64,000 nt of DNA, from contig NZ_CP077079.1 of the NCBI RefSeq assembly GCF_019139815.1, positions 5,215,001 through 5,279,000 of the forward strand. Reading direction: 5' to 3'. The notes beneath the pieces are model-generated. The model did no database searches. It was not told where the DNA came from and worked only from the letters and a program-made list of their open reading frames with translations. A program made the translations under genes and the position numbers. This document shows, piece after piece, positions 6,182-20,676 of the stretch (the stretch's first letter is position 1; each line of letters begins with the position of its first letter). The stretch is from Pseudomonas asgharzadehiana. Its GTDB lineage: Bacteria; Pseudomonadota; Gammaproteobacteria; Pseudomonadales; Pseudomonadaceae.

Positions 6182-7195
6182 ATGGACGATATCTCCGGAA
6201 AAAGCTCAACGAAAAATGATTTCTCTCGCCTCAATGCCGATATGTTGCACACCATCCTGGAGCTCTCCAGCGACGGGATCTGGGACTGGAACGCCAATAC
6301 CGGGTTCGTCTACCGCAACCCAGGCTGGTACGAAATGCTCGGCTACCCCCGCCACGCTCTGGACAACAACGTATTCACCTGGGAAAACGTGATCCACCCC
6401 GACGATTACAACCAAGTGATGACGGTGTTTGACGACTACATCAACCGTCGCGCCCCCCAGTATCAAACTGAATACCGCTGCCGCAAAAAAGACGGCAGCT
6501 ACCTGTGGATCGAGGACCGCGGTTATGTGGTGGCGCGTAACCCCGACGGTTCGGTGGCGCGGATGGTCGGGGCCCTGCGCGATATCCAGCTGCGCAAATA
6601 TTCCATCGAGCAACTGGAGCGGCGCAATCAATCCCTTGAGGCATTGGTGGCCGAGCGCACGCTTGAACTGTCGCGGGTCAATCAGCAATTGCAGCTGCAG
6701 GTGGATGAGAACCGCGTCCTGGCTGAACGGGATGCCTTGACCCTCGTCGCCAACCGGTATCGCCTGGAAAAAGTGTTGCTCCAAGAGTGCGAACGCGCCC
6801 AGCGCTTTCACCTGCCGTTGTCACTGATCGCGATGGATGTTGACGACTTCAAGCCGATCAATGATCGACACGGGCACGGCGTAGGCGACCAGACCCTGGT
6901 GCAGGTGGTGGAACGCCTGGAAAGCTGCGTCCGCCAGGGCGACCTGTTGGCTCGTTGGGGGGGCGATGAGTTTATGGTGGTCCTTCCCGAAAGCTCATTG
7001 GAAACAGCCAAGGCCCTGGCTGAGACTATCTGCCAGAGCTTGAGAACTCACCGGATAACCGACGACGTCAAGGTCACACTGAGCCTGGGCGTGGTCGAAC
7101 GCCAAGTGAATGAAGCCCCCGCCGCCCTGATGGCGCGCGCCGATCAGGCCCTGTATCGAGCCAAAGCGGCGGGCAAAGACGGCGTATCGACATAG
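6182..7195 (+). CDS. PAS-domain diguanylate cyclase
   Basis: A 337-residue protein with a PAS_3/PAC sensor domain (about 20-140), a short coiled coil (about 145-180) and a GGDEF domain (about 185-337). The active-site motif RWGGDEF is intact, and an inhibitory I-site RQGD lies five residues before it, so an active, feedback-controlled cyclic-di-GMP synthase is expected. There are no membrane segments. The start at ATG 6182 is favoured by AAGGAG at 6169-6174. It follows the phytochrome region but is separated by the phosphoesterase gene, so a light link is not shown. Confidence 0.92.
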   Translation: MDDISGKSSTKNDFSRLNADMLHTILELSSDGIWDWNANTGFVYRNPGWYEMLGYPRHALDNNVFTWENVIHPDDYNQVMTVFDDYINRRAPQYQTEYRCRKKDGSYLWIEDRGYVVARNPDGSVARMVGALRDIQLRKYSIEQLERRNQSLEALVAERTLELSRVNQQLQLQVDENRVLAERDALTLVANRYRLEKVLLQECERAQRFHLPLSLIAMDVDDFKPINDRHGHGVGDQTLVQVVERLESCVRQGDLLARWGGDEFMVVLPESSLETAKALAETICQSLRTHRITDDVKVTLSLGVVERQVNEAPAALMARADQALYRAKAAGKDGVST

Positions 7196-7207
7196 GCCGC
7201 CCCGGTA

Positions 7208-8236
7208 TCAGCGCACCGGCGGCGCGTACTGAATGCCGCCGTTGTTCCATAAGGCATTGAGCCCGCGCTTGATCTTCAACACGCTGCCCTGGCCGATGTT
7301 GCGCTCGAATACTTCGCCGTAGTTGCCCACTTGCTTGACGATCTGCACCACCCAATCCTTGCGCAGTTTGAGGTCCTTGCCATATTCGCCGTCGGCACCC
7401 AGCAGCCGCGCCACATCCGGATTCTTGGAATCCTTGGCCTGCGCTTCGACATTCTGCGACGTGATGCCCATCTCCTCGGCATTGAGCATGGCGAACAGGG
7501 TCCATTTGACGATGCTGAACCACTCGTCATCCCCCTTGCGCACCAACGGTCCCAGGGGTTCTTTGGAGATGACTTCCGGCAGCACCACAAACTCATCCGG
7601 GTGCGCCATCTTGATGCGCTGGGCATACAGGCCCGACTGGTCGGTGGTCAGCACATCGCAACGCCCGGCTTCCAGGCCCTTGGCGCTTTCGTCGGCGGTA
7701 TCGAAGGTGATAGGCGTGTACTTCATGCCATGGGTGCGGAAGTAATCGGCCACGTTGAGTTCGGTGGTAGTGCCGGCCTGGATGCACACGGTGGCGCCAT
7801 TCAACTGCTTGGCGGCGCTAACACCGAGTTTGTTGTTCACCAGAAAACCGATGCCGTCGTAGTAGGTAACGCCGGTAAACACCAGGCCCATGCCCGAATC
7901 GCGGGAGCTGGTCCAGGTGGTATTACGCGAGATCAGGTCGATCTCGCCGGACTGCAAGGCGGTGAAACGTTCCTTGGCGGTCAATTGGGTGAACTTCACT
8001 TTTGATGCATCGCCGAACACCGCGGCCGCCACGGCATGGCACACATCCACATCGATGCCGGTCATCTTGCCCGTACTGTCGGGCACGCCAAAGCCAGGCA
8101 ACCCGTCGCTGACACCGCATTGAATAAAACCTTTTTTCTGGATTGCATCCAACGTCGCACCGGCGTGGGCGGTGCCGGCCAGGCCCAATAGGGCCGTAGC
8201 ACTGATCGTGGCCAAGGTGGTTTTGAATAGGTTCAT
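7208..8236 (-). CDS. Periplasmic amino-acid ABC transporter substrate-binding protein (AapJ-like)
   Basis: A 342-residue type II periplasmic binding protein with a cleavable signal peptide (about 1-25, ending AHA). The sequence follows the general L-amino-acid binding protein AapJ pattern: GIDVDVCHAVAAAVFGD, FTALQSGEIDLISRNTTWT and a C-terminal NNGGIQYAPP. Family members bind polar and acidic L-amino acids. No permease or ATPase gene is next to it, so it is either an orphan that uses a transporter encoded elsewhere or a periplasmic sensor component. It converges on the diguanylate cyclase gene with only 12 bases between them. Confidence 0.88.
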   Translation of the reverse strand: MNLFKTTLATISATALLGLAGTAHAGATLDAIQKKGFIQCGVSDGLPGFGVPDSTGKMTGIDVDVCHAVAAAVFGDASKVKFTQLTAKERFTALQSGEIDLISRNTTWTSSRDSGMGLVFTGVTYYDGIGFLVNNKLGVSAAKQLNGATVCIQAGTTTELNVADYFRTHGMKYTPITFDTADESAKGLEAGRCDVLTTDQSGLYAQRIKMAHPDEFVVLPEVISKEPLGPLVRKGDDEWFSIVKWTLFAMLNAEEMGITSQNVEAQAKDSKNPDVARLLGADGEYGKDLKLRKDWVVQIVKQVGNYGEVFERNIGQGSVLKIKRGLNALWNNGGIQYAPPVR

Positions 8237-8458
8237 GCGAGGCGCTCCCTGTCGGTCCTTATTATTCGGCGCTGCACAGCCCGCGCCGGTTTCTGATGCT
8301 GCCGGGGGAGAGTGACGGGTTTACAGCGCCGCCACAAACGACCTTTTGGCAACAGCTCCTTCCGATTTGGAATGACCCGGCGATTTTATTTCCTTTGCGC
8401 CAGGGCCCCGCCGGCAGCTTAGATAAAAAGACGCCCGCCACTGCCGAGTCCAGGATCC

Positions 8459-9709
8459 ATGAGCCGCGAAACCATCAGCCAGTCGATTTCCGTCGTTCAC
8501 CCCATCAGCCTCAGCCACGGTAAAAACGCCGAAGTCTGGGACACCTCGGGCAAGCGCTATATCGATTTTGTCGGTGGCATCGGCGTGCTCAACCTCGGCC
8601 ATTGCCACCCCGCCTTGGTGGCGGCGATTCGTGAACAGGCGACCCAACTGACCCACTACGCCTTCAACGCCGCGCCGCACAAGCCCTACCTCGAACTGAT
8701 GGATCGCCTGACCGCGTTTATTCCGGTGGGCTATCCGGTCAGCGGCATGCTCACCAACAGCGGCGCCGAGGCCGCGGAAAATGCCTTGAAGATCGTGCGC
8801 GGGGCCACGGGCCGCACGGCGGTGATCGCCTTTGACGGCGCGTTCCACGGCCGCACCCTGGCCACGCTCAACCTCAATGGCAAAGTGGCGCCCTACAAGC
8901 AAAAGGTCGGCGTACTGCCCGGCCCGGTGTATCACCTGCCCTACCCCAGTGCCGATAACGGTGTCACCTGCGCTGAAGCATTGAAGGCCATGGACCGACT
9001 GTTCAGCGTAGAAATCGACGTCGACGATGTAGCCTGCTTCATCATCGAACCGGTACAGGGCGAAGCCGGCTTTCTGCTCCTGGACAGCGAATTCGCCCAA
9101 GCCCTGCGGCGTTTCTGCGATGAAAAAAATATCCTGCTGATCGCCGACGAAATCCAATCAGGGTTTGGCCGCACCGGCCAGCGTTTCGCCTTTTCGCGCC
9201 TGGGCATCGAACCCGACCTGATCCTGCTCGGCAAAAGCATCGCCGGCGGCGTGCCACTGGGTGCGGTGGTCGGGCGCAAAGCGTTGATGGACAACCTGCC
9301 CAAGGGCGGGCTGGGCGGTACCTACTCCGGTAACCCCATCGCCTGCGCGGCGGCGTTGGCGACCCTGGATGCAATGACCGATGAACAGGTGCACGCGTGG
9401 GGCGCCCGGCAAGAAGCGGCCATCGTCAGTCGCTACCAGGCCTGGCGCGAGCAGCATCTGTCGCCCTACCTGGGCCGCTTGACTGGCGTTGGTGCCATGC
9501 GCGGCATAGAACTGGCGCATGCCGACGGTACACCCGCGCCCAAGCAACTGGCCCAGTTGCTGAGCCTGGCGCGGGACGCCGGCTTGCTGTTGATGCCCAG
9601 TGGCAAGTCTCGGCACATCATTCGCCTGCTGGCGCCGCTGACCATTGAACCTGCGGTACTGGAAGAAGGGTTGGATATTCTTCAAGCGTGTCTCAAGCAG
9701 TTGGTTTAA
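8459..9709 (+). CDS. Class III PLP-dependent aminotransferase (GabT-like)
   Basis: A 416-residue class III (omega) aminotransferase. The PLP-binding lysine is Lys259 in LLGKSIAGG; the usual SGAEAAENALK phosphate-binding loop and the LLIADEIQSGFGRTG motif are present. Members transfer an amino group from 4-aminobutyrate, 5-aminovalerate, 2-aminoadipate or related omega-amino acids to 2-oxoglutarate. The usual partner semialdehyde dehydrogenase is not adjacent, so substrate cannot be assigned from context. It is transcribed divergently from the amino-acid binding protein over a 222-base gap, which would fit a shared nutritional role. Confidence 0.88.
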   Translation: MSRETISQSISVVHPISLSHGKNAEVWDTSGKRYIDFVGGIGVLNLGHCHPALVAAIREQATQLTHYAFNAAPHKPYLELMDRLTAFIPVGYPVSGMLTNSGAEAAENALKIVRGATGRTAVIAFDGAFHGRTLATLNLNGKVAPYKQKVGVLPGPVYHLPYPSADNGVTCAEALKAMDRLFSVEIDVDDVACFIIEPVQGEAGFLLLDSEFAQALRRFCDEKNILLIADEIQSGFGRTGQRFAFSRLGIEPDLILLGKSIAGGVPLGAVVGRKALMDNLPKGGLGGTYSGNPIACAAALATLDAMTDEQVHAWGARQEAAIVSRYQAWREQHLSPYLGRLTGVGAMRGIELAHADGTPAPKQLAQLLSLARDAGLLLMPSGKSRHIIRLLAPLTIEPAVLEEGLDILQACLKQLV

Positions 9710-9840
9710 CCCCCGCATCCGCCGGCCGGCAGCCCAACTGCACGATAAGGGCATTGTGCTGCCTTGACCTGATTCCCCCGCCCCCTGAAAATGCGCGACG
9801 TTTTTTTGTCTCCCCCGTTTACTGAAGTAGTGAAATTTCA

Positions 9841-10557
9841 ATGTCCGATTCTTACACCGAACACACCGCCGAAGAATCCGTAGTCGCCTTGCACGCCAAA
9901 GCTGAATACGAAAATGCCATCAATCTTTCACAGCATGTACCCGCCGCCAAGATCATCAGCGAGATGGTGCTGGACGCGTTCCATACCTCCAAGGAAAGCG
10001 ATCAGATCCGCGAACTGCGCATCGCCATCCGCCAGGCGCACGATGCCTTCGACGACGACAAAGCCTACGAACTGATGGGCCAGCTCAAGCAGTTGAAAGA
10101 CGCCGAAGCCGCCGACAACATCGCACTGGAAGACCTGAGCAGCAAATTCTCGATCAGCCGCATCCTGTCCAGCTTCAAGGACGACCCCGAGTTCCAGGAG
10201 TTGGTCTACGGCCTGGCCCTCAAAGTGCTGAACCAGTCTCACCAGGCCATCAGCAACCCAAGCACCGGCAAGGGCAAGGCCGCACGCGCCAAGAAAGAAG
10301 CCGAAGTGTTTGTGATCAGCAAAGATGGCGTCAGCGTCACGCTGCCCCTGCGCACGCCGCGCTCCAAGTTGAATGTCGACCGTGAAGCCTTCGAGTTCCT
10401 GGGTTTGCGCTTTGTAGGCGAAGGCGATGAAGCGGAGTTGGAAGTGGACAGCTTTGTGGATAACGCCGGCATTGAACAGCCGCTGAGCCGCAAGAGCGTG
10501 ATCACCGCCCTGCAGCAACAGAGCGCGTTCGAAGGCTACAGCATCGCGCAGCAATAA
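9841..10557 (+). CDS. Hypothetical protein, helical then beta-rich
   Basis: A 238-residue acidic protein I do not recognise. Residues about 15-145 are strongly helical and charged, with probable coiled-coil character; about 146-160 is a basic Gly/Lys/Ala linker; about 163-230 looks like a small beta domain (VFVISKDGVSVTLPLRTP). There is no signal peptide or membrane segment. The reading frame has normal Pseudomonas GC bias, so it is very likely a real gene. A REP palindrome follows it and separates it from the convergent aminotransferase gene. Confidence 0.7.
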   Translation: MSDSYTEHTAEESVVALHAKAEYENAINLSQHVPAAKIISEMVLDAFHTSKESDQIRELRIAIRQAHDAFDDDKAYELMGQLKQLKDAEAADNIALEDLSSKFSISRILSSFKDDPEFQELVYGLALKVLNQSHQAISNPSTGKGKAARAKKEAEVFVISKDGVSVTLPLRTPRSKLNVDREAFEFLGLRFVGEGDEAELEVDSFVDNAGIEQPLSRKSVITALQQQSAFEGYSIAQQ

Positions 10558-10585
10558 CCCCTCCAGGCAACACCGCACAACTGAA

Positions 10586-10613
10586 CGTGTGGGAGCAAAC
10601 CCGCTCCCACACG
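10586..10613. repeat. REP palindrome between convergent genes
   Basis: An 11-base perfect inverted repeat, CGTGTGGGAGC with its complement, around a six-base loop. It is one of a family of GTGGGAG-type palindromes in this window and sits exactly between two convergent stop codons, where it could also act as a bidirectional terminator. Confidence 0.85.
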
Positions 10614-10618
10614 TGGTA

Positions 10619-11713
10619 TCAACCGACGCGCTCAACCTGCGCCGCGAACACCTCGCGAAAGCGCGCCATCTGCTGCTTGCTCCCCACCGTCACCCGCACC
10701 CACTGCGGCCAGTTTTCCCACACCCGTCCGATGAGTACGCCGTGTGCAGCGAGTGTCTCGATGACCTGCTCCGCCGGCCGCTTGACGTCGATCATGAAAC
10801 AGTTGGCCTGGGAGGCCGTGCAGGCGAAACCGCGACCCTTGAGCCACGTGATGGTCTCATCGCGCAGTTGGGCATTGAGCGCCTTGCGTTGCGGCAATAA
10901 TTTCACGTCTTCCAGGCTGGCAAGGCCTCCGAGCAAAGAAGCGCCCGCCGGAACGTTGTCGCCGCCAAACACTGCCAAGCGTTCCAGCAGCGCCGGGTGG
11001 CCGATCGCCAAGCCCAGGCGCGCACCGGCCATGCCATAGATTTTCGAAAAGGTGCGCAGCACCAGCAGATCGTCGTGGTCCTTGACCCAATTGACCACGC
11101 TCGGCGTGTCGGCAAAGTCGATGTAAGCCTCGTCCACCACCAGCACGCTGCCCTTGGGTTTGTTGGTCAGCGCCTGGCGGATGGCTTCGAACGGGGTCAG
11201 GGTGCCGGTGGGGTTGTTAGGGTTGCACAGGTACAGCATGCCGGCCTGCGTGTCGGCCGCCAGCATGGCCGACACGTCGTGGGCATGCTCGGCGTTGAGG
11301 CTCACTTCCTTGACGGGCGCCTTGTGTGACTCGGCTGCCTGCCGTGGCACTTCGTACGACGGCGTGGCCATTACCAGGCCACGGGTTTGGCTGGTGAATG
11401 CCAGCACAGCGTAACGCAATGCGGCCATGGAACCGGAAAATACCGCCACCTGCGTTTCGGCAAGCCCGTGTTGCTGGGCAAACAAACCGGCCAGCGCATA
11501 CATATGCGTGTAGGGATATCGCCCGGCCGTCGTGATCCCGCGCTGCATCGCCGCGCGGGCCGCCGGCGATGGTCCGTAGGGGCTTTCGTTATAGTTGAGC
11601 AGCACCTCGTCAGTCTCCGCCGCCGGCGGCGCGGCGACCGCCCAATTCAGGTGGCCCAGCACCGGCAGGGCGGCCCCCAGGGCCAGAAGGGATCGACGGC
11701 TGACGCTGACCAT
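10619..11713 (-). CDS. Tat-exported PLP aminotransferase, HisC fold (PtaA-like)
   Basis: A 364-residue class I/II aminotransferase of the histidinol-phosphate type with the PLP lysine at Lys224 (FSKIYGMAG) and the CNPNNPTG motif. Unusually, it begins with a twin-arginine signal, SRRSLLALG, followed by a hydrophobic stretch and an Ala-rich cleavage zone, so a folded PLP enzyme is predicted to be exported to the periplasm. P. fluorescens has a known Tat-exported transaminase, PtaA, that modifies the pyoverdine side-chain glutamate; the signal and fold fit that role, but no pyoverdine genes are in view. The start at 11713 has GGAG eight bases upstream. Confidence 0.82.
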   Translation of the reverse strand: MVSVSRRSLLALGAALPVLGHLNWAVAAPPAAETDEVLLNYNESPYGPSPAARAAMQRGITTAGRYPYTHMYALAGLFAQQHGLAETQVAVFSGSMAALRYAVLAFTSQTRGLVMATPSYEVPRQAAESHKAPVKEVSLNAEHAHDVSAMLAADTQAGMLYLCNPNNPTGTLTPFEAIRQALTNKPKGSVLVVDEAYIDFADTPSVVNWVKDHDDLLVLRTFSKIYGMAGARLGLAIGHPALLERLAVFGGDNVPAGASLLGGLASLEDVKLLPQRKALNAQLRDETITWLKGRGFACTASQANCFMIDVKRPAEQVIETLAAHGVLIGRVWENWPQWVRVTVGSKQQMARFREVFAAQVERVG

Positions 11714-11796
11714 GGTGACTACTCCGTGTAGAGGGAATGGATGGGCACTGCTCCTATTGAAAGGTATGACGAGACAAGCGTCGGATGATTTAACCG

Positions 11797-11844
11797 AGCC
11801 CCGATAAACGAGCCGCGCGCGACCACTCAAGGCGGGGCTTTTTT
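11797..11844 (+). terminator. Possible plus-strand terminator-like hairpin
   Basis: AGCCCCG at 11797-11803 pairs with CGGGGCT at 11833-11839, and six T follow on the plus strand. The loop is long (29 bases, itself GC-rich). No plus-strand gene ends here, since both neighbours read minus. It may be chance or the end of an antisense/small transcript. Confidence 0.35.
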
Positions 11845-11856
11845 CCAGCCACGGCC

Positions 11857-13212
11857 TCAGCTTTCCCAGTAGTCGGCGATGGGATATTTCGCGCACAGGT
11901 GCTCGAGTTCCGCACGCAATTGCGCCTGCATTGCCGGTTCCAACCGGTACTCGTGTTCGCCGAGCGGCGTCACCTGCTGCAGTATTCGGCACACCAGATC
12001 GACGACCTGTCGGCAGCCATCGGTGTCGATGTTACGTTGCGCCATGGATCCGGTGCCGATGCACAACCCATTGTCGACAGCGCACGCGCGGGCCTGGCCC
12101 GGCACGCGATGCGTGTTCACCACGATGCCGCAGCTTTCCAATGCCACTTCGGCGATGGAACCGCTAATACCGTCGCGCAAGCGGATCTGCACGGTATGGT
12201 TTTCACTGCGCCCGCCCACCACTTCATAGCCGCGGGCCAGGAATGCACCGGCCAGCTCATCGGCCAGGCTGCGAACCCGGCCCATGCAGGCGTCAAACTC
12301 CGCGGTCATCGCGTAGCCCAGCGCGGCCGCTTTGGCGGCGATCATATTGACCGCCGGCGCGCCCTGCATGCGCGGAAATACAGCCTGGTCGAGCACACGG
12401 CTGAACGTCGCCCGCAAGCCGGGCACCTTGGTATGTGCATCGCGACCGCAAAGGATCAGCCCGCCACGTGGGCCGCCCAGTTGTTTGTGAGTACAGGTGG
12501 TGGTGACGTGTGCCGCATTGATCGGGCTTGGGTGCCGACCTGTCGCCACCAGCCCGGCGATATGGGAGATGTCCGCCAGCAGGATCGCGCCCGCCTCATC
12601 GGCAATTGCACGGAACCGCTCGAAATCCACCACTCGCGAATAGGCCGAAGCACCGCAGAGGATAACGCGTGGCCGATGGGCCAGTGCCAGGCTGCGCACC
12701 TGCGCGTAATCAATCAGCCCCTCGGCGGTGGTGCCGTAGCGGATAGCCTTGTAATAGGCGCCGGTAAATATCGACGGGCTGCCGTAGGTAAGGTGCCCAC
12801 CATGATCAGGGGCCATGCCCAGCAGAGTATCGCCAGGTTCAAGCAGTGCGGACAGCACTTGGGCGTTGGCATGGGAGCCGGAGTGCGACTGAACATGGGC
12901 GTAGTGGGCATCAAACAGTTCACGGGCGCGGCCAATCGCCAGGGATTCGACCCGGTCGACATTCTCGCAACCGGCGCGATGGCGACTGCCCCGCGTGCCC
13001 TCGGCGGTGACGTTGACCAGTGCAGAAGCAGACGCCGCCAGAGTGCGGGGTTTTACAGCGCAGGAGGAAGGCACCAGCGACAGGGTTCGGTGTTGACGCT
13101 CGACTTCGGCGTCGAGGAGCATCGCCAGCTCCAAGTCCTCGGCGCGCAGATCTGCCATGCCTCGGCGCAGCAAGTCAGCCTGATCCTGCAGTTGTACGGT
13201 GTTGACTGCCAT
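11857..13212 (-). CDS. SHMT-like PLP enzyme with altered active site
   Basis: A 451-residue fold type I PLP protein that aligns by eye with serine hydroxymethyltransferase along its full length. Fold and cofactor residues remain: PLP lysine Lys243 (TTCTHKQLGGPRGG), ADISHIAGL, and the HSGS loop. Three residues that define SHMT chemistry are changed relative to E. coli GlyA: catalytic Glu57 is Ser50, Tyr65 is Arg79 (Tyr64-Tyr65 read His78-Arg79), and substrate-carboxylate Arg363 is Cys384. It is therefore unlikely to interconvert serine and glycine. The start has AAAAGGA upstream. It is divergent from the XRE-VUT pair. The substrate is unknown. Confidence 0.8.
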   Translation of the reverse strand: MAVNTVQLQDQADLLRRGMADLRAEDLELAMLLDAEVERQHRTLSLVPSSCAVKPRTLAASASALVNVTAEGTRGSRHRAGCENVDRVESLAIGRARELFDAHYAHVQSHSGSHANAQVLSALLEPGDTLLGMAPDHGGHLTYGSPSIFTGAYYKAIRYGTTAEGLIDYAQVRSLALAHRPRVILCGASAYSRVVDFERFRAIADEAGAILLADISHIAGLVATGRHPSPINAAHVTTTCTHKQLGGPRGGLILCGRDAHTKVPGLRATFSRVLDQAVFPRMQGAPAVNMIAAKAAALGYAMTAEFDACMGRVRSLADELAGAFLARGYEVVGGRSENHTVQIRLRDGISGSIAEVALESCGIVVNTHRVPGQARACAVDNGLCIGTGSMAQRNIDTDGCRQVVDLVCRILQQVTPLGEHEYRLEPAMQAQLRAELEHLCAKYPIADYWES

Positions 13213-13517
13213 GGGCGATGTCCTTTTCTGGGTTGCTGCTCGTCAGTTCGTCCTGAACCGTGGCGACCAATTAAACAGGAAATTAAACATTTTCCAAATT
13301 ATATGTTCTCTTTCGTCCGCTCCAACCGAGTTAATGGCCATCTGCCTTGCCTGCTGCCAGCGCCGAGCATCTTGGACTTTATTGTTGAACCGCACGCGTG
13401 CAACACTTGCGCCCGCCACGCAGCCATAAACGCCCCGGATGGGCGCTCAATCGCTGGAAAACATCCCATGGCAGCGGCAAGGTCCAAAGGTTCTGACTAA
13501 AAGGAAGTGGTGAGCAC
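13213..13517. promoter_or_regulatory. Divergent intergenic region with direct repeats
   Basis: A 305-base gap between the SHMT-like gene (minus) and the XRE gene (plus), with no convincing gene. Its left half is AT-rich for this genome. AATTAAACA occurs at 13269-13277 and again at 13281-13289, one 12-base step apart and about 60 bases from the SHMT-like start. This is a candidate operator for the adjacent regulator; no footprint evidence exists. Confidence 0.45.
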
Positions 13518-14123
13518 GTGATGCACAGACGCGAAAAAACCGAGCATTTGAAGAGCAACATCAAGTATCTGATCAAAAGCCGCGGCGAGACCCAGTTGTC
13601 GTTGTGCAACGCCGCCGGGCTCACCCGCACCACGATCTACAACATCCTCGAAGGCAAGGTCGTCAACGTACAGCAGTCGACCCTGCGCAAGATTTCAGAT
13701 TTTTTCGGTGTGTCTTACAAAGAAATCGAGACCATCGATTTTGAAGCCAAAGAGCTTATCGAGAGCAGCGTTTCGCCCCAAGGCAACATGAACCCGGCGG
13801 CCGTGCCGGTGCTCAAGCAAAGCCAGGTCATGCAGCACCTGGACAAGCGCATTGGCGAACTGGCCACACTCTTCCCCCTTACGTACTACTTCGGCACGTC
13901 CCACAACCTGATCGGCGTGCGGCTGGAGCAGGCCATACCGGGGGTGAACGAGCCGGGCGATCTGTTGATCATCCAAAAGGGCATGTCGAGCGACGATAAG
14001 GAAAAGTTGGTGTTCGACAGGGCCACCCAGACGCTGTCTATCCGCCGTGAACCCTGCGCCAGCTCAGAACGCCTGTGTGTACTGGGCGATATCATTGAGG
14101 AGCGCTTCAATGACGGCGTATGA
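13518..14123 (+). CDS. XRE-family regulator with LexA/CI-like C-terminal domain
   Basis: A protein of about 200 residues with an N-terminal helix-turn-helix (about 10-68, with LTRTTIYNILEGK as recognition region) and a C-terminal beta-rich domain resembling the S24/LexA peptidase fold (about 115-195). The position normally holding the Ser-Met catalytic pair reads Glu-Gln before AIPGVNEPGD, so autocleavage is unlikely. Starts are GTG 13518 or ATG 13521, preceded by AAAAGGAAG. The last 14 bases overlap the next gene, so the regulator and transporter are co-translated. It probably controls its own operon and perhaps the divergent SHMT-like gene. Confidence 0.8.
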   Translation: MMHRREKTEHLKSNIKYLIKSRGETQLSLCNAAGLTRTTIYNILEGKVVNVQQSTLRKISDFFGVSYKEIETIDFEAKELIESSVSPQGNMNPAAVPVLKQSQVMQHLDKRIGELATLFPLTYYFGTSHNLIGVRLEQAIPGVNEPGDLLIIQKGMSSDDKEKLVFDRATQTLSIRREPCASSERLCVLGDIIEERFNDGV

Positions 14124-14988
14124 AGGCGAGATCGAAAACAGCAAATACAAACTGCTTGGCTTTGAAAATGACAAGTGCCTGGCGGTGATCATGATCATCG
14201 CCACGGGCAAGATCATTCGGGTCAAGTTGAGCGAAGTCTTAAACAGCGAAATCATGGACAATCTGAACAAAATGGAAATTAAAAACCTGTACAAGAAGTT
14301 TTATTCCCAGGGCGGCGCGGTCACCGCGTACGACCTCAATGATCGCAATGAAAACTCCTGGATGATCTACATCATCCTGAACCTGCTGCTCTTCACGTTT
14401 TATATTTTTACCAGCATCGCCGCGACCAAACCGATCTACATCGAATCCCTCGACATCATCGTCACACCGGGCACTTTCCTGTATCCGCTGACCTTCCTGA
14501 TCGTGGATCTGCTCAACGAGAACTTCGGCCTAAGGCTTGCCAGAAAGGCCATCCTGTTTGCCTTCGCCAGCAACGCGATGATTATTATCCTGCTCTACGG
14601 CTCGACCTTTCTGCCCGGCCTGCCAGGCTGGAAGCTCGATGGGCCTTACAACGCAGTGATCGTGCAGGTGTCATCGGTATTGATCGCGTCGTCGGTGTCG
14701 TTCCTGGTGTCGGAGAACATCAACTCGTATTTGCTGTGCAAGATCAAAGAGCTGACCAACTCCAGGTACTTGTACTTGCGCATCTTCCTCAGCACGTTCT
14801 TTGCGGTGATTATCGACAGCTTCCTGTTCTGTTTTATCGCGTTTTATGGCGCCATGCAGACCAGCGACATTGTGAGCATGATCTACGTGCAGATCGCGAT
14901 CAAAGTCGGTTTTGCGTTCTTCAACATCTTGCCGGCCTATGGCGCACGTTCATTATTCAAACGCTACCTGACCAACGCCACTGCGTGA
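14110..14988 (+). CDS. VUT-family membrane transporter with extra N-terminal domain
   Basis: A 292-residue protein. Residues about 84-285 form six or so membrane helices of the VUT/YhhQ (DUF165) family, whose characterised members import queuosine precursors; the signature YPLTFLIVDLLNENFG is at about 125-140. Residues 1-83 are a charged, soluble domain that standard YhhQ proteins (about 220 residues) lack, and its DNA is more AT-rich than its neighbours. The start ATG 14110 overlaps the XRE gene by 14 bases. The neighbouring convergent queC supports a link to 7-deazaguanine metabolism; substrate direction is not known. Confidence 0.8.
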   Translation: MTAYEGEIENSKYKLLGFENDKCLAVIMIIATGKIIRVKLSEVLNSEIMDNLNKMEIKNLYKKFYSQGGAVTAYDLNDRNENSWMIYIILNLLLFTFYIFTSIAATKPIYIESLDIIVTPGTFLYPLTFLIVDLLNENFGLRLARKAILFAFASNAMIIILLYGSTFLPGLPGWKLDGPYNAVIVQVSSVLIASSVSFLVSENINSYLLCKIKELTNSRYLYLRIFLSTFFAVIIDSFLFCFIAFYGAMQTSDIVSMIYVQIAIKVGFAFFNILPAYGARSLFKRYLTNATA

Positions 14989-15010
14989 TCGGCCGTTGCC
15001 TGGCGTCGTT

Positions 15011-15030
15011 GCAGCTGCCGAAGCAGCTGC
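15011..15030. terminator. Hairpin between convergent VUT and queC genes
   Basis: GCAGCTGC, a CGAA loop and GCAGCTGC again form an eight-base stem with a stable tetraloop. There is no T-tract, so it is only a possible terminator for either gene. Confidence 0.4.
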
Positions 15031-15045
15031 CATGACGGTCGGCGG

Positions 15046-15744
15046 TCAGGCCAGTGGCAACTTCTGCTTGAGGCTCTGCATGACCTGCGCTTTGTTCTGC
15101 AGGTAATCATTCAAACCGCGCGCGCGCAGGTTGCACGCGTCGCAGTTGCCGCAGCCGGTGCCGATGATGCCGTTGTAGCAGGTCAGTGTCTGCTCACGGA
15201 CCAAGTCCAGTTGCTGGTAGTAATCAGCCAATGCCCAGGTTTCAGCCTTGTTCAGCCACATCAACGGCGTGTCGAGGCGCACGTCGTATTCCATGCCCAG
15301 CTTGAGCGCCTGGTTCAACGCCTTGACGAACTCGTCGCGGCAGTCGGGGTAGCCCGAGAAGTCGGTTTCGCAGACGCCGGTGATCACCGTCTCAGCCTTG
15401 ACCTGGTATGCGTAAATTGCCGCCAGGGTCAAAAACAGGATATTGCGCCCGGGCACAAAGGTGCTGGGCAGGCTGTCGCCCGAGCTGTTCACGGTGGGTA
15501 CCGGGATGTTGTCACGCGTGAGGCTGCTGATGGCCAACTCGTTGAGCAACGACACATCCATCACTTTATGAACGGTGGCTCCCAACTGTTTGGCCAACTG
15601 TTGGGCGACTTCGACTTCCGCCACATGGCGCTGGCCGTAGTCGAAGGTGATGCAGTGCACTTCGTCATACAGCGCCAGCGCCTGGATCAGACAGGTCGTC
15701 GAATCCTGCCCGCCACTGAACACCATAACGGCTTTTTTACTCAT
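15046..15744 (-). CDS. queC: 7-cyano-7-deazaguanine synthase, enterobacterial type
   Basis: A 232-residue QueC, which makes preQ0 from 7-carboxy-7-deazaguanine using ATP and ammonia. The PP-loop is SGGQDS at 10-15, and four zinc cysteines occur in the C-terminal [19 protein letters not shown] region. The sequence matches the E. coli form ([12 protein letters not shown] start, [16 protein letters not shown]) more than the pseudomonad housekeeping form I recall (LLSGGLDSATV), and queE is absent here. It may therefore be a second, transferred copy. ATG 15744 has AGGAAG upstream. A terminator separates it from the cyo operon. Confidence 0.92.
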
Positions 15745-15797
15745 TGCTTTGCTTCCTGCACGGATAGGGTTTAGCGCTAGTTTAAGGGTCACTCAAT

Positions 15798-15835
15798 AAA
15801 AAACCCCGCGCTTCTTGCGAAGGCGGGGCTTTTTG
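15798..15835 (-). terminator. Rho-independent terminator of the cyo operon
   Basis: GCCCCGC and GCGGGG arms flank a 13-base loop, with A-tract and T-tract on both sides. On the minus strand the stem is followed by TTTTTTATT just after the cyoE stop. The symmetrical tracts could also stop plus-strand transcripts. Confidence 0.88.
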
Positions 15836-15848
15836 TTGCTCATGCCAC

Positions 15849-16736
15849 TCAGTGTGCGTAAGTCAGCAACAGCTCTTTGGGCACTTGGAAATCCAGGGAC
15901 ATCATCACGCTGAGCGCGGTGATGGTGAAGATCGAGAACACAAACAGCTTGCGCGCCCAGACGGTGTCATCCACCGCCTTGTAGCCGGTCCAGGCCATGT
16001 ACAACCAGTACATGCCCATGGCGGCGGCGACGGCGAGGTAGCTCATGCCGGCGTAGCCACTGAAGGTCAACATCAAGGTCGCCACGAGGAAGGCCAGGAT
16101 GTAGAGCAGGATGTGTTTCTTGGCGACCTGGATACCACGCTTGACCGGCAGGACCGGAATCGACGCAGCCAGGTAGTCGTTGAAACGGAAGATCGCAATG
16201 GCGTAGGAATGCGGCATCTGCCACAGGCTGAACATCACCAGCAGCGTCAGCGCGGCCATGTCGAAGCTATTGGTCACAGCCACATAACCAATCACCGGCG
16301 GCATCGCCCCCGACAGACTGCCCACCAGCGTGCCGTGAACCGACTTGCGCTTGAGGTACAGGCTGTAGAGGCCGACGTAGATGACAAAGCCGATCACGGC
16401 AAACAGCGCCGCCAGCGGGTTGGCCACCTTGTACAACAGCGCCACACCGGCAACACCCAAAACGGTCGCATAGATCAGTGCCAGCTTCAGGGAGATCAGG
16501 CCCTGGACCAGCACGCGATTCTTGGTGCGCTCCATCTTGATGTCGATGTCACGGTCGATGCAGTTGTTGAATACGCAACCGGAAGCCACCACCAGGGACG
16601 TACCGATCATCGCAGCCAGGAAGATGGCCAGATCGACATGTCCCTTGGAGGCCAGGAAGAAACCGCCCGCCACAGAAAGCACGTTACCGAAAATGATCCC
16701 CGGTTTGGTGATTTGGATAAAGTGCTTAAGCGACAT
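15849..16736 (-). CDS. cyoE: Protoheme IX farnesyltransferase
   Basis: A 295-residue integral membrane prenyltransferase of the UbiA superfamily that converts haem B to haem O for cytochrome bo3. The Asp-rich motif [18 protein letters not shown] carries the allylic-diphosphate binding aspartates, and about nine hydrophobic helices are evident. It is the last gene of the cyoABCDE operon, 11 bases after cyoD, and is followed by a strong terminator. Confidence 0.96.
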
Positions 16737-16747
16737 CGGGTCTTACC

Positions 16748-17083
16748 TCACTTCGCCATCATGTAGGTGTGGATGCTGAACATGATCCACAGCGACAGAC
16801 CAACCAGCAGAACGATCACCAGGCCTGCGAACACGAACGCAATCACGTTCTCGCGCTGGGCCTCGGAGCGGTCCAGGTGCAGGAAGTACACCAGGTGAAC
16901 CAGCACCTGGATCACCGCGAACGCCAGGACGATCATCAGGGTGATCGACTTCGGCAAGGTCGGGTACATCACCAGGCCGAACGGGATCAGGGTCAGGATG
17001 ACCGACAGGATGAAGCCGATAGCGTAAGACTTTACGCTGCCGTGGCTTGCATCGTGGCTGTCATGGGAGTGTGCATTAGCCAT
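16748..17083 (-). CDS. cyoD: Cytochrome bo3 ubiquinol oxidase subunit IV
   Basis: A 111-residue protein with a His-rich soluble N-terminus and three membrane helices, typical of CyoD, an assembly/stability subunit of cytochrome bo3. Its ATG shares one base with the cyoC stop (TAATG), so translation is coupled. Confidence 0.95.
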   Translation of the reverse strand: MANAHSHDSHDASHGSVKSYAIGFILSVILTLIPFGLVMYPTLPKSITLMIVLAFAVIQVLVHLVYFLHLDRSEAQRENVIAFVFAGLVIVLLVGLSLWIMFSIHTYMMAK

Positions 17084-17709
17084 TACAGAGTCCCCATCAA
17101 GTAGACGACGGTGAATACGCAGATCCAGACCACGTCCAGGAAGTGCCAGAACAGGCTCAGGCAGCTCAGGCGCGTCTTGTTGGTGTTGGTCAGACCGTGC
17201 TTATTGACCTGATACATCATCACCGCCATCCACAGCAGGCCGGCCGAAACGTGCAGGCCGTGGGTGCCAACCAGCGTGAAGAACGCCGACAGGAAGCCGC
17301 TGCGGTGCGGGCCGTAGCCTTCGGAGATCAGCAGGTGGAACTCGTTGATCTCCATGCCGATGAAGCCCAGGCCGAACAGGAACGTCAGGCCCAGCCAGCT
17401 CAGCACGCCTTTCTTGTTGCCCTTGTAGAAGGCCAACATGGCGAAGCCGTAGGTGATCGAACTGAACAACAGCAAGGCGGTTTCGCCGAGCACGTAAGGC
17501 AGTTCGAAGATGTCGTGGCCCGACGGGCCACCCGCTACGTTGTTTACCAGTACCGCGTACACCGCGAAGATCGACGCAAACAAGATGCAGTCGGTCATCA
17601 GGTAGAGCCAGAAACCGAAGACGGTCATTGGCCCCGAGTCGTGGTGATGGTCATCGTGCCCATGGTCATCGACATGGGCGTGTCCAGCATTGGTCACTAA
17701 GTTCGACAT
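17083..17709 (-). CDS. cyoC: Cytochrome bo3 ubiquinol oxidase subunit III
   Basis: A 208-residue subunit III with five membrane helices. The N-terminus is unusually His/Asp-rich (residues 9-27, [15 protein letters not shown]), which is common in pseudomonad CyoC and may bind metal. The motifs [13 protein letters not shown] and LVGTHGLHV are typical of haem-copper oxidase subunit III. It lies three bases after cyoB in the operon. Confidence 0.95.
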
Positions 17710-17712
17710 GGT

Positions 17713-19731
17713 TTAAGCCTGTTCCAACGAGGTTTCAACACGGTTGGCCGGGATTTCCTTCTCGGCTACCAGGCGAGCGTGCTGCTCGGCTTCGATGCGC
17801 TCGATTGTCTCGACCGGCACCATGTAGCCTTGATCATCACGTGCTGCGTGGACAATGAAGTAGCCGATGGTGCCCACCAGGCTCACGATTGCCAGCCACC
17901 AGATGTGCCAGATCATCGCGAAACCGAACACGGTCAACAGCGCACCCATCACCACGCCAGTGGCGGTGTTGCTTGGCATGTGGATCGGTTCGTAGTGCTT
18001 GGGTTGCTGGTACGCAGTACCGTCTTCCTTGGCTTCGGTGAACGCATCGATGGTGTTCGCAGTCGGGATCACGGCGAAGTTGTAGAACGGCGGTGGCGAC
18101 GAGGTCGACCATTCCAGGGTGTGGCCATTCCACGGGTCGCCGGATTCGCACATGTTCTGCTTGCGATCACGCACGCTGACATACAGCTGGATCAGCTGGC
18201 AGGCGATGCCCACAGCGATCATCACCGCACCGAACATGGCGACGTACAGGTACGGCACCCACTCAGGGTTGGTGGTGGCGTTCAGACGACGGGTCATGCC
18301 CATGAAGCCCAGTGCATAGAGCGGCATGAACGCGACGAAGAAGCCCGAGATCCAGAACCAGAACGCAGCCTTGCCCCAACCTTCGTGCAGCTTGAAGCCG
18401 AACGCTTTCGGGAAGTAGAAGCTGAAGCCGGCGATGTAACCGAATACCGCACCACCGATGATCACGTTGTGGAAGTGCGCGATCACGAACAGGCTGTTGT
18501 GCAGCACGAAGTCAGCGCCCGGAATGGCCAGCAGTACGCCGGTCATGCCGCCGATGGCGAAGGTCACCATGAAGCCCAGGGTCCACAGAACCTGGCTGGT
18601 CATGCGCAGACGACCGTGATAGATGGTGAACAGCCAGTTGAATAGCTTCACCCCCGTCGGGATGGAAATCAGCATCGTCGCCAGGCCGAAGAAGGCGTTG
18701 ACGCTGGCCCCCGAACCCATGGTGAAGAAGTGGTGCAGCCAGACCATGAAGCCCAGTACGGAGATCGCGCCCGAGGCGTAGACCATCGAGTGGTGACCGA
18801 ACAGGCGCTTGCCGGTAAAGGTCGAGATCACTTCGGAGAAGATACCGAACGCCGGCAGGATCAGGATGTACACCTCAGGGTGGCCCCATGCCCAGAACAG
18901 GTTCACGTACATCATCGGATTGCCACCAAGTTCATTGGTGAAAATGTGGAAATCCAGGTAACGGTCAAGCGACAGCAGCGCCATGGTAGCGGCCAGGATC
19001 GGGAACGAAGCCACGATCAGCACGTTTGCCCAGGTGCAGGTCCAGGTGAAGATCGGCATGTCCATCAGTTTCATGCCAGGGGCGCGCATCTTCAGCACGG
19101 TGGCCAGGAAGTTGACCCCCGTCAGCGTCGTCCCGAGCCCTGATAACTGTAGCGCCCAGATGTAGTAGTCCACACCCACGCCAGGGCTGTACTGAATGCC
19201 CGACAACGGCGGATACGCAACCCAACCGGTCTTGGCGAATTCGCCGACGCCCAGGGACACGTTGATCAGCACAACACCGGAAACCAGCAGCCAGAAGCTC
19301 AGGGAGTTCAGGAACGGGTAGGCAACGTCACGCGCACCGATCTGCAGCGGCACCGCAAGGTTCATCAGGCCGGTGAAGAAAGGCATCGCCATGAAGATGA
19401 TCATGATCACACCGTGAGCGGTGAAGATCTGGTCATAGTGTTCAGGCGGCAGGTAGCCAGGCGAACCCTCGGTGGCCATGGCCAACTGGGTACGCATCAT
19501 GATGGCGTCGGCAAAGCCGCGCAGCAGCATGACCATGGCAACGATGATGTACATCACGCCAATTTTCTTGTGGTCGACCGAAGTCAGCCACTCGGTCCAC
19601 AGGTAGGTCCACTTCTTGAAGTAAGTGATACCTGCAAACAGTGCCAGACCACCCAGCGCGATCATGGCGATGGTAATCATCACAATCGGCTCGTGGAACG
19701 GGACCGCATCCCAACTTAATTTACCAAACAT
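17713..19731 (-). CDS. cyoB: Cytochrome bo3 ubiquinol oxidase subunit I
   Basis: A 672-residue catalytic subunit that reduces O2 to water with quinol electrons and pumps protons. The binuclear-centre segment [11 protein letters not shown] contains the His-Tyr cross-link pair, and HHFFTMG supplies CuB histidines; [14 protein letters not shown] near the C-terminal half carries the haem ligands. About 15 membrane helices are seen, and the length matches E. coli CyoB. It is three bases downstream of cyoA and three upstream of cyoC. Confidence 0.97.
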
Positions 19732-19734
19732 CGT

Positions 19735-20676
19735 TTACTCCTCTGCCCCAGCAGTTGAATGCGCGCCCGTGTCAGAACCTTCAACCGCGGCCACTTCTTT
19801 CTTCTCGTGCTTGACCGGTTTGCCTGGTTTCATGCCTTCGTACTTGTCGACGATTTTCTGAAACAGGTTCGGCTCGTACGCGGAGTACAGGGCGACTGGG
19901 TTGTTCTGGCTTGGTTTGGTCAGGGCGTCGTATTCAGCTTGATCAAGCTGTTTAGGTGCGGCCTTGACTTCGGCTACCCAGGCGTTGAAGTCTTCCTGGC
20001 TCGTCGAGATCGCTTTGAATTTCATGCCGGTGAAGCCAGCGCCGCTGTAGTTGGCGGAGATGCCTTCCATTTCAGCTTTCTGGTTGGCGATCAGGTGCAG
20101 CTTGGTCTGCATGCCTGCCATCGCGTAGATCTGACCGCCCAGGGCAGGGATGAAGAACGAGTTCATCACAGCGTCGGAGGTGATCTTGAAGTTCAGCGGA
20201 GTGTGCTCCGGGAAGCGGATCTGGTTAACCGTGGCGATACCCAGGTCCGGGTAGATGAACAGCCACTTCCAGTCCAGCGCGACCACTTCGATGTTGATCG
20301 GCTTGACGTCGGATTCCAGCGGACGGTACGGGTCCAGTGCGTGGGTCGACTTGTAGGTCACATAACCCAGGGCAATGATGATGAGGATCGGAACCAGCCA
20401 CACCGCGATTTCAATCTTGGTGGAGTGCGACCACTTCGGCGCGTAGGTGGCGCTGGTGTTGGACGCGCGGTATTTCCAGGCGAAGGCGAAGGTCATGATG
20501 ATCACAGGGACCACGACCAGCAGCATCAGCAGGGTGGCGGTGATGATCAGGTTTCGTTCATCCAGGCCGACCTGTCCTTTTGGGTCGAGCAAGGTCCACT
20601 TGCAGCCTCCCAGCATTAAGAACATGCCAAGCAGCGGCAAAAAGCCTAGTAATCGGGGGTACCTGTTTTTACTCAT
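19735..20676 (-). CDS. cyoA: Cytochrome bo3 ubiquinol oxidase subunit II (lipoprotein)
   Basis: A 313-residue subunit II with a lipoprotein signal ending MLGGC (acylated Cys25), two membrane helices (about 45-70 and 90-110) and a periplasmic cupredoxin domain. As expected for a quinol oxidase, the CuA ligand set is missing. The acidic, Lys/Glu-rich C-terminal tail is extended. I chose ATG 20676 over an upstream GTG-type start because AGAGG precedes it and the signal peptide then begins correctly. It is the first gene of the operon. Confidence 0.96.
   Translation of the reverse strand: MSKNRYPRLLGFLPLLGMFLMLGGCKWTLLDPKGQVGLDERNLIITATLLMLLVVVPVIIMTFAFAWKYRASNTSATYAPKWSHSTKIEIAVWLVPILIIIALGYVTYKSTHALDPYRPLESDVKPINIEVVALDWKWLFIYPDLGIATVNQIRFPEHTPLNFKITSDAVMNSFFIPALGGQIYAMAGMQTKLHLIANQKAEMEGISANYSGAGFTGMKFKAISTSQEDFNAWVAEVKAAPKQLDQAEYDALTKPSQNNPVALYSAYEPNLFQKIVDKYEGMKPGKPVKHEKKEVAAVEGSDTGAHSTAGAEE

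Follow-up and report, generated by a model that had tools for sequence, protein, structure and literature searches.

The window analysed here is a stretch of 64,000 nucleotides from the Pseudomonas asgharzadehiana contig NZ_CP077079.1 (positions 5,215,001 to 5,279,000). At the locus under study, a gene for a protein with the fold of serine hydroxymethyltransferase (SHMT), a textbook PLP enzyme, lies beside genes for a regulator and a transporter:

11857..13212, minus strand: SHMT-fold orphan protein of PbzB type, 451 aa (PF00464; 7qcw, 711.7 bits; clade sister to Pseudomonas PbzB)
13269..13298, minus strand: promoter-like element 5' of the SHMT-like gene (TTGGAA, 16 nt, TTTAAT), recognized by conservation
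13518..14123, plus strand: XRE-type HTH regulator, start maybe the ATG at 13521 (PF13443, PF01381)
14047..14988, plus strand: VUT/COG1738 transporter with an N-terminal extension; the ORF overlaps the XRE end, and the start is perhaps the ATG at 14110 (PF02592, 7.9e-35; TIGR00697 above cut-off)
15046..15792, minus strand: queC, 7-cyano-7-deazaguanine synthase (NF008317 above cut-off; synteny)

The original prediction of an SHMT-fold ORF at 11857..13212 proved real. A Pfam profile search matched the 451-aa product to PF00464 over its full length (3.5e-106; 355.6 bits against a cut-off of 27), placing it in the SHMT superfamily, and the NCBIfam subfamily NF000586 scored 389.1 bits (cut-off 335). 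Its AlphaFold2 model (mean pLDDT 88.3, pTM 0.89) is closest among solved structures to 7qcw (1.6 A, 70% identity over 441 alignment columns), which is also the closest solved protein in score (711.7 bits; runner-up 329) and whose PDB title is apo PbzB from Pseudomonas chlororaphis. The 6.1-Mb single-contig genome encodes two further SHMTs, both GlyA copies, with 44-45% identity to this product. Both have the canonical residue at all 17 positions checked, so the residue changes described below are specific to the third, divergent gene. Among the best 120 of 7891 matches, the named close relatives of the SHMT-like protein are from Pseudomonas.

PMC10098953 describes PbzB as the enzyme that converts L-/D-serine or glycine into 2-hydroxymethylserine for benzobactin, with the motif TAEG--RYH in place of YAEG--RYY; section 11 of that source reports that PbzB with Thr68 and His78 both changed to Tyr (T68Y/H78Y) gave no detectable product, so these positions matter. 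The claim that there is no characterised family near the window protein is not supported: PbzB is characterised, about 70% identical and already has Tyr55->Thr and Tyr65->His. PMC10098953 prints the PbzB structure as PDB 7QWZ; the PDB lists 7qcw, and a literature search by the id 7QCW found no paper.

One sampled genome, G006, encodes a close match to the PbzB-like P0060 (99% identity), and P0060 in turn is 96% identical to 7qcw. The gene for this match is flanked on one side by a carrier-protein/thioesterase gene and on the other by genes for an FMN reductase, an AlkZ-like protein, an NRPS, a 449-aa protein without a Pfam match and a chorismate-binding enzyme; from this gene content we infer a benzobactin-type cluster, with the 449-aa protein as its AMP-ligase. 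The window protein is 74% identical to the G006 copy, and its gene has as neighbours XRE, VUT, queC and an aminotransferase rather than a benzobactin-like NRPS cluster. A search at 1e-20 that recovered the 449-aa protein in G006, the positive control, did not find it in the window genome or in 8 other orphan genomes. These neighbours and this absence rule out membership in a benzobactin cluster. Contexts of pbzB outside Pseudomonas come from PMC10098953; in 369 genomes of the same class, a search for PbzB relatives at 1e-140 returned the window's own protein alone.

The predicted divergence from a regulator-transporter pair was confirmed as XRE-VUT, and the arrangement is conserved: the SHMT-like gene is divergent from this pair in 28 of 28 orphan genomes (298 sampled). 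All 16 named loci L004-L019 and the loci of the 28 orphan genomes have both partner genes, with VUT often running off the end of the locus. Both are also present in 18 of 18 loci of a second set, whose genomes partly overlap the first. queC adjoins VUT in most relatives examined and was not seen near it in L099 and L125. Between the ATG at 14110 and the TIGR00697 match, the N-terminal extension of VUT covers about 90 residues, and no other family matched it. The aminotransferase (10619-11713, minus strand) belongs to the PtaA-type pyoverdine transaminases (above the NF051461 cut-off, the match beginning at residue 94) and has a signal-like stretch, SRRSLLALG, at its N-terminus; the ORF start at 11992, which overlaps the SHMT-like gene, is probably too far upstream. 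A 238-aa protein (9841-10557, plus strand), found near the locus in many relatives, matches no Pfam or NCBIfam family at 0.001.

Upstream of the SHMT-like gene, a 30-base element is common to 31 loci of the subclade that has Cys in place of Arg363 of E. coli GlyA (Cys384 in the window protein), with a mean column identity of 0.915 against 0.732 for 54 other intergenic columns. In the window it reads as a -35/-10 pair, TTGGAA-16-TTTAAT, with one match in the genome at three or fewer mismatches and none for the reversed control. Six of the 31 loci encode proteins that have lost the PLP lysine (hereafter Lys-less), and L036 and L040 have the most worn copies of the element. The subclade that keeps Arg363 has, in most loci, paired CTGTACAG boxes upstream in place of the TTTAATT element: the paired boxes are found in L033, L037, L039, L041-L045, L143 and L144, and altered forms in L032, L034, L047, L048 and L128. 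The conserved upstream element suggests that the SHMT-like gene is expressed under local control. No inverted-repeat operator was found in the gap between this gene and XRE, no known RNA family reached the gathering score at 7000-20000, and the XRE upstream footprint is weakly conserved across 65 distinct sequences.

To place the protein, we used a tree of 109 rows, built by a quick method with SH-aLRT rather than bootstrap support, in which the window protein falls within a clade of 56 orphans (SH-aLRT 98). This clade is sister to four Pseudomonas PbzB rows (joint node 97), with the other 47 PbzB-type rows further out, so that the window protein groups with PbzB and not with GlyA. Left out of the tree are P0001, which was translated from the wrong strand, and 15 proteins that are redundant, partial or fused (P0003, P0010, P0016, P0020, P0023, P0034, P0041, P0051, P0052, P0054, P0079, P0095, P0096, P0103 and P0106). 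The origin of the SHMT-like gene from PbzB-type proteins, as a PbzB paralogue, is well supported.

At 1e-150 the SHMT-like protein matches 29 of 298 Pseudomonas genomes, one of the matches being G006 pbzB, which leaves 28 intact orphans; a search with P0018 finds matches in 40 of 398 genomes, G006 and G215 among them. XRE is found at 1e-50 in 65 of the 298, including all 28 orphan genomes and not G006. The SHMT-like gene has no counterpart in 36 of these 65 XRE genomes at the search level used (19 checked as DNA, 17 judged by the 1e-150 search alone). In seven gene-less loci of close relatives (L083, L086, L087, L088, L090, L091 and L095) the aminotransferase gene directly adjoins XRE, across a gap of 191-198 bases in six of them. 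In G215 (L115 6698-8037) the SHMT-like gene is broken into two pieces that do not share a reading frame, which looks like a recent loss. Presence and absence of the gene require two changes on an unrooted XRE tree, whose 63 distinct rows include 45 with the gene and omit 17 gene-less genomes, and none of 500 shuffles gave a count as low; because deeper XRE lineages are without the gene, we read the two changes as one gain and one loss. The gene is present in 45 of the 51 rows of the XRE clade that acquired it. Trees and synteny together indicate that it was apparently gained once beside XRE-VUT, in an ancestor of part of Pseudomonas.

Next, we tabulated active-site residues from an alignment of the window protein with E. 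coli GlyA, 51 PbzB-type and 56 orphan-clade proteins. We take the aligned GlyA positions to have their customary catalytic roles, those of Tyr55 and Tyr65 being discussed in section 11 of PMC10098953. Three features mark the changes:

12976..13008, minus strand: loop Thr69-Ala-Glu71 ... His78-Arg79 (GlyA YAEG--RYY, PbzB TAEG--RYH), from the alignment
12484..12486, minus strand: codon of Lys243, equivalent to the PLP lysine Lys229 of E. coli GlyA; kept here, Arg, Gln or Thr in several relatives (computed from the ORF start)
12061..12063, minus strand: codon of Cys384, equivalent to the carboxylate-binding Arg363 of E. coli GlyA (computed from the ORF start)

As had been proposed, Lys229 is retained as Lys243, Tyr65 aligns with Arg79 and Arg363 aligns with Cys384. 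The accompanying claim that Glu57 had become Ser50 was mistaken: Ser50 aligns with Glu36, and Glu57 is kept as Glu71 in the TAEG motif, which rules out its loss. The alignment thus finds one of the three supposedly lost residues, the Glu, intact elsewhere, and the Tyr and the Arg replaced. Further changes are Tyr55->Thr69 (also in PbzB), Tyr64->His78, Asn347->His368, Lys346->Thr367 and Leu121->Pro135, and Asp200, His203, His228 and Arg235 are kept as Asp214, His217, His242 and Arg249. The canonical GlyA signature (YAEG--RYY, Arg363, Asn347), intact in the genome's two other GlyA proteins, reads TAEG--RHR, Cys384 and His368 in the window protein. These replacements rule out canonical SHMT identity, and the view that this is not a normal SHMT is borne out, Arg363 and Tyr65 being gone though the protein is under purifying selection. 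The residues at Tyr64, Tyr65, Asn347 and Arg363 are all replaced, a loss of catalytic residues of the kind that marks a pseudoenzyme, if the catalytic need for the four is as we assume and as PMC10098953 describes. The other such mark, loss of the cofactor lysine, is absent from the window protein, where Lys243 is present.

PbzB is like the window protein in fold, length (at about 70% identity), Thr at Tyr55, the kept Glu57, Cys at Thr226 and the PLP cradle; the window protein differs from it in having His78-Arg79 for Tyr-His (TAEG--RHR, not the PbzB motif TAEG--RYH), Cys384 for Arg, His368 for Asn and Thr367 for Lys, and its gene adjoins XRE-VUT, outside any pbz cluster. Canonical GlyA (E. 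coli 1dfo; two copies in this genome) shares the fold, the PLP lysine, Glu57, Asp200, His203, His228 and Arg235, whereas Tyr55, Tyr64, Tyr65, Asn347, Lys346 and Arg363 are replaced. The L-threonine/fluorothreonine transaldolases (TIGR04506) share an SHMT-related fold type I, but the window protein scores 71.7 bits against their cut-off of 650, which rules out an L-threonine transaldolase.

Across the clade, the change of Arg363 to Cys traces to a single event and is kept in 41 of the 56 orphan proteins; the remaining 15 keep Arg. Cys384 is almost fixed and both of its codons, TGT and TGC, are in use, so it looks selected rather than decayed. P0003, which stands outside the 56-protein set and is two residues from the window protein, has Ser at 384. 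At the tabulated positions, the protein of L011 resembles PbzB everywhere but at Arg363 and residue 36. Of the 46 distinct orphan loci, 7 have Arg, Gln or Thr in place of the PLP lysine itself, with at least four state changes on the tree. These ORFs are full length without stops, and their motifs (CTHRQL, CTHTQL, CTHQQL) leave little alignment doubt over the loss, given the CTH-x-QL context. Seven of the 56 database proteins are likewise Lys-less (P0013, P0056, P0061, P0063, P0064, P0065 and P0067), from lineages that are partly those of the Lys-less loci, and Lys243 is kept in 15 rows of the window's own 17-row subclade.

Despite these replacements the gene is constrained and not decaying freely, as its median pairwise dN/dS of 0.157 implies (dS 0.1-1.2; 737 pairs from 45 rows, near-duplicates and G006 pbzB included). 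The medians of its neighbours are 0.118 for XRE, 0.071 for VUT, 0.074 for queC, 0.044 for cyoE and 0.139, a similar value, for the aminotransferase. For the Lys-less loci we profiled omega on a grid of IQ-TREE likelihoods. With five loci (L014, L015, L016, L018 and L027) the likelihood peaks at omega 0.07-0.1, and at kappa 3 lnL is -3692.7 at omega 0.1 versus -3987.7 at 1.0, making omega = 1 worse by 295; with three (L015, L016 and L018) the peak lies in the same range, and lnL is -2819.4 versus -2989.1 at omega 1, worse by 170. L031, inside the group, keeps Lys, so the ancestral state is uncertain and part of this constraint may predate the loss.

The constraint is unevenly spread. In 25 columns that we take to form the active site, PbzB-type proteins (51; tree length 17.0) show 0.16 changes per site and orphans (56; 6.1) show 4.96; other columns show 9.26 and 4.70, respectively. 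Among columns invariant in PbzB-type proteins, orphans average 4.38 changes at 21 active columns versus 1.44 at 70 others (permutation p 0.0023), and six of the 13 sites significantly faster in orphans belong to the 25-site list (hypergeometric p 2e-5), p values that are not blind because the list was fixed after the residue tables were seen. The positions of Tyr64, Tyr65, Asn347, His126 and His203 vary among orphans. Ser49, Gly139, Asp214, Cys240, His242 and Arg249 are invariant in all 56, and a codon count (62 loci collapsed to 46 distinct, G006 pbzB as outgroup) gives omega 0.11 for the 25 active sites together versus 0.17 for the rest; on both counts the PLP cradle shows no drift. What has been released is chiefly the substrate and folate side of the pocket, and the cradle stays. 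A parsimony codon count found no significant positive selection at single sites (lowest p 0.16). Ala30 and Lys155, both variable positions in PbzB-type proteins, never change across the 56 orphans and are significantly slower there after correction, a hint of newly gained constraint. Selection preserves the overall fold while part of the active site wears away, so the job for which the protein is retained is probably not its original chemistry.

What that job might be can be weighed against the residue losses, from which the original prediction had proposed a new PLP reaction on a substrate without the usual carboxylate contact. This proposal is weakened because relatives in the same clade have lost the PLP lysine and residues on the substrate and folate side vary between species; for members that keep the lysine, the window's included, we regard a PLP enzyme with a changed reaction or substrate as the main rival account, possible though doubtful. 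Here Lys243, Asp214, His217, His242 and Arg249 would hold PLP and Cys384/Arg79 would remodel the carboxylate site, for example with an Arg moved to the Tyr65 position. The intact cradle and Lys of the window protein fit such an enzyme, as does a change of Arg363 to Cys that arose once and was then kept. The aligned proteins with Arg79 all have Cys or Ser at 384 apart from P0023 (Val, an odd 434-aa form), but Arg79 rows are mostly one subclade, and residue 79 in Cys384 members can be Arg, His, Gln, Gly, Ser or Tyr, which does not amount to a consistent compensation. Moreover, Asn347, Tyr64 and His126 differ between related species, and lineages without the lysine stay constrained. Continued 2-hydroxymethylserine synthesis as in PbzB, or a weak SHMT reaction, seems very unlikely. 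Although full-length identity to PbzB is about 70% (74% to the G006 copy) and Thr69 and Glu71 are retained, five residues that scarcely or never vary among 51 PbzB-type proteins (Tyr64, His at 65, Lys346, Asn347 and Arg363) have all given way to others in the window protein, the inactive T68Y/H78Y PbzB of PMC10098953 implies that such positions matter, and the 449-aa ORF of the G006 cluster is missing from the window genome and 8 other orphan genomes.

It is just as improbable that the gene is a relic heading for loss without a selected function. Its patchy distribution, the one clade that lost it, the G215 copy in two frames and the partly eroding active site would suit a relic, but dN/dS is low, omega = 1 is strongly rejected even for Lys-less members, the promoter-like element is conserved, and 45 of the 51 rows of the XRE clade that acquired the gene still have it. 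The account we place at the head, with about even confidence, is that the window gene is an exapted enzyme, most likely a pseudoenzyme with a putative binding or regulatory role. That the retained role is non-catalytic is itself an evenly balanced judgement; such a role would explain why the pocket and even the lysine are dispensable while the rest is held.

In this account, a PbzB paralogue, apparently acquired once beside XRE-VUT, was retained there outside benzobactin clusters. Selection has since held the fold and largely released the folate and substrate side of the active site, Arg363 has become Cys in one large subclade, and the PLP lysine has been dropped in several lineages; the retained job would then need no SHMT turnover. 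A putative dimer, possibly still with PLP or a ligand in the intact phosphate/ring cradle, would act by binding a partner; with Lys243 in place, the window copy may still be able to form a PLP aldimine. The candidate partners, the divergent XRE regulator and the cell's GlyA, are a guess, and with 36 of 65 XRE genomes lacking the gene, XRE is independent of it and any role as partner would be an add-on. In a narrower and unlikely version, an antibiotic-pathway PLP enzyme would have become a separate subunit that senses for, or regulates, the divergent XRE regulator of VUT. This would presumably resemble a split MocR-type regulator in which the former enzyme senses and begins to discard its PLP lysine. 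Dead paralogues that act through a partner, namely the trypanosome prozyme and the dead deoxyhypusine synthase paralogue, are reported to be alike in their conserved fold and lost catalytic residues; the window protein differs in being bacterial, in keeping its lysine and in having a partner that is a candidate.

PbzB is already published; the clade described here consists of probably exapted, in part lysine-less SHMT paralogues, and no description of it was found among the open-access papers listed in the literature searches. Among the best 120 of 7891 matches these genes carry the automatic label 'serine hydroxymethyltransferase', which is probably wrong for them and, if so, would matter for one-carbon metabolic models of Pseudomonas. 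The clade appears to be partway through leaving catalysis, its intermediates grading from the PbzB-like L011, through loss of substrate-side residues, to loss of the PLP lysine in some lineages, all under purifying selection at one conserved locus. It offers a natural series for asking what an enzyme fold serves after its chemistry goes.
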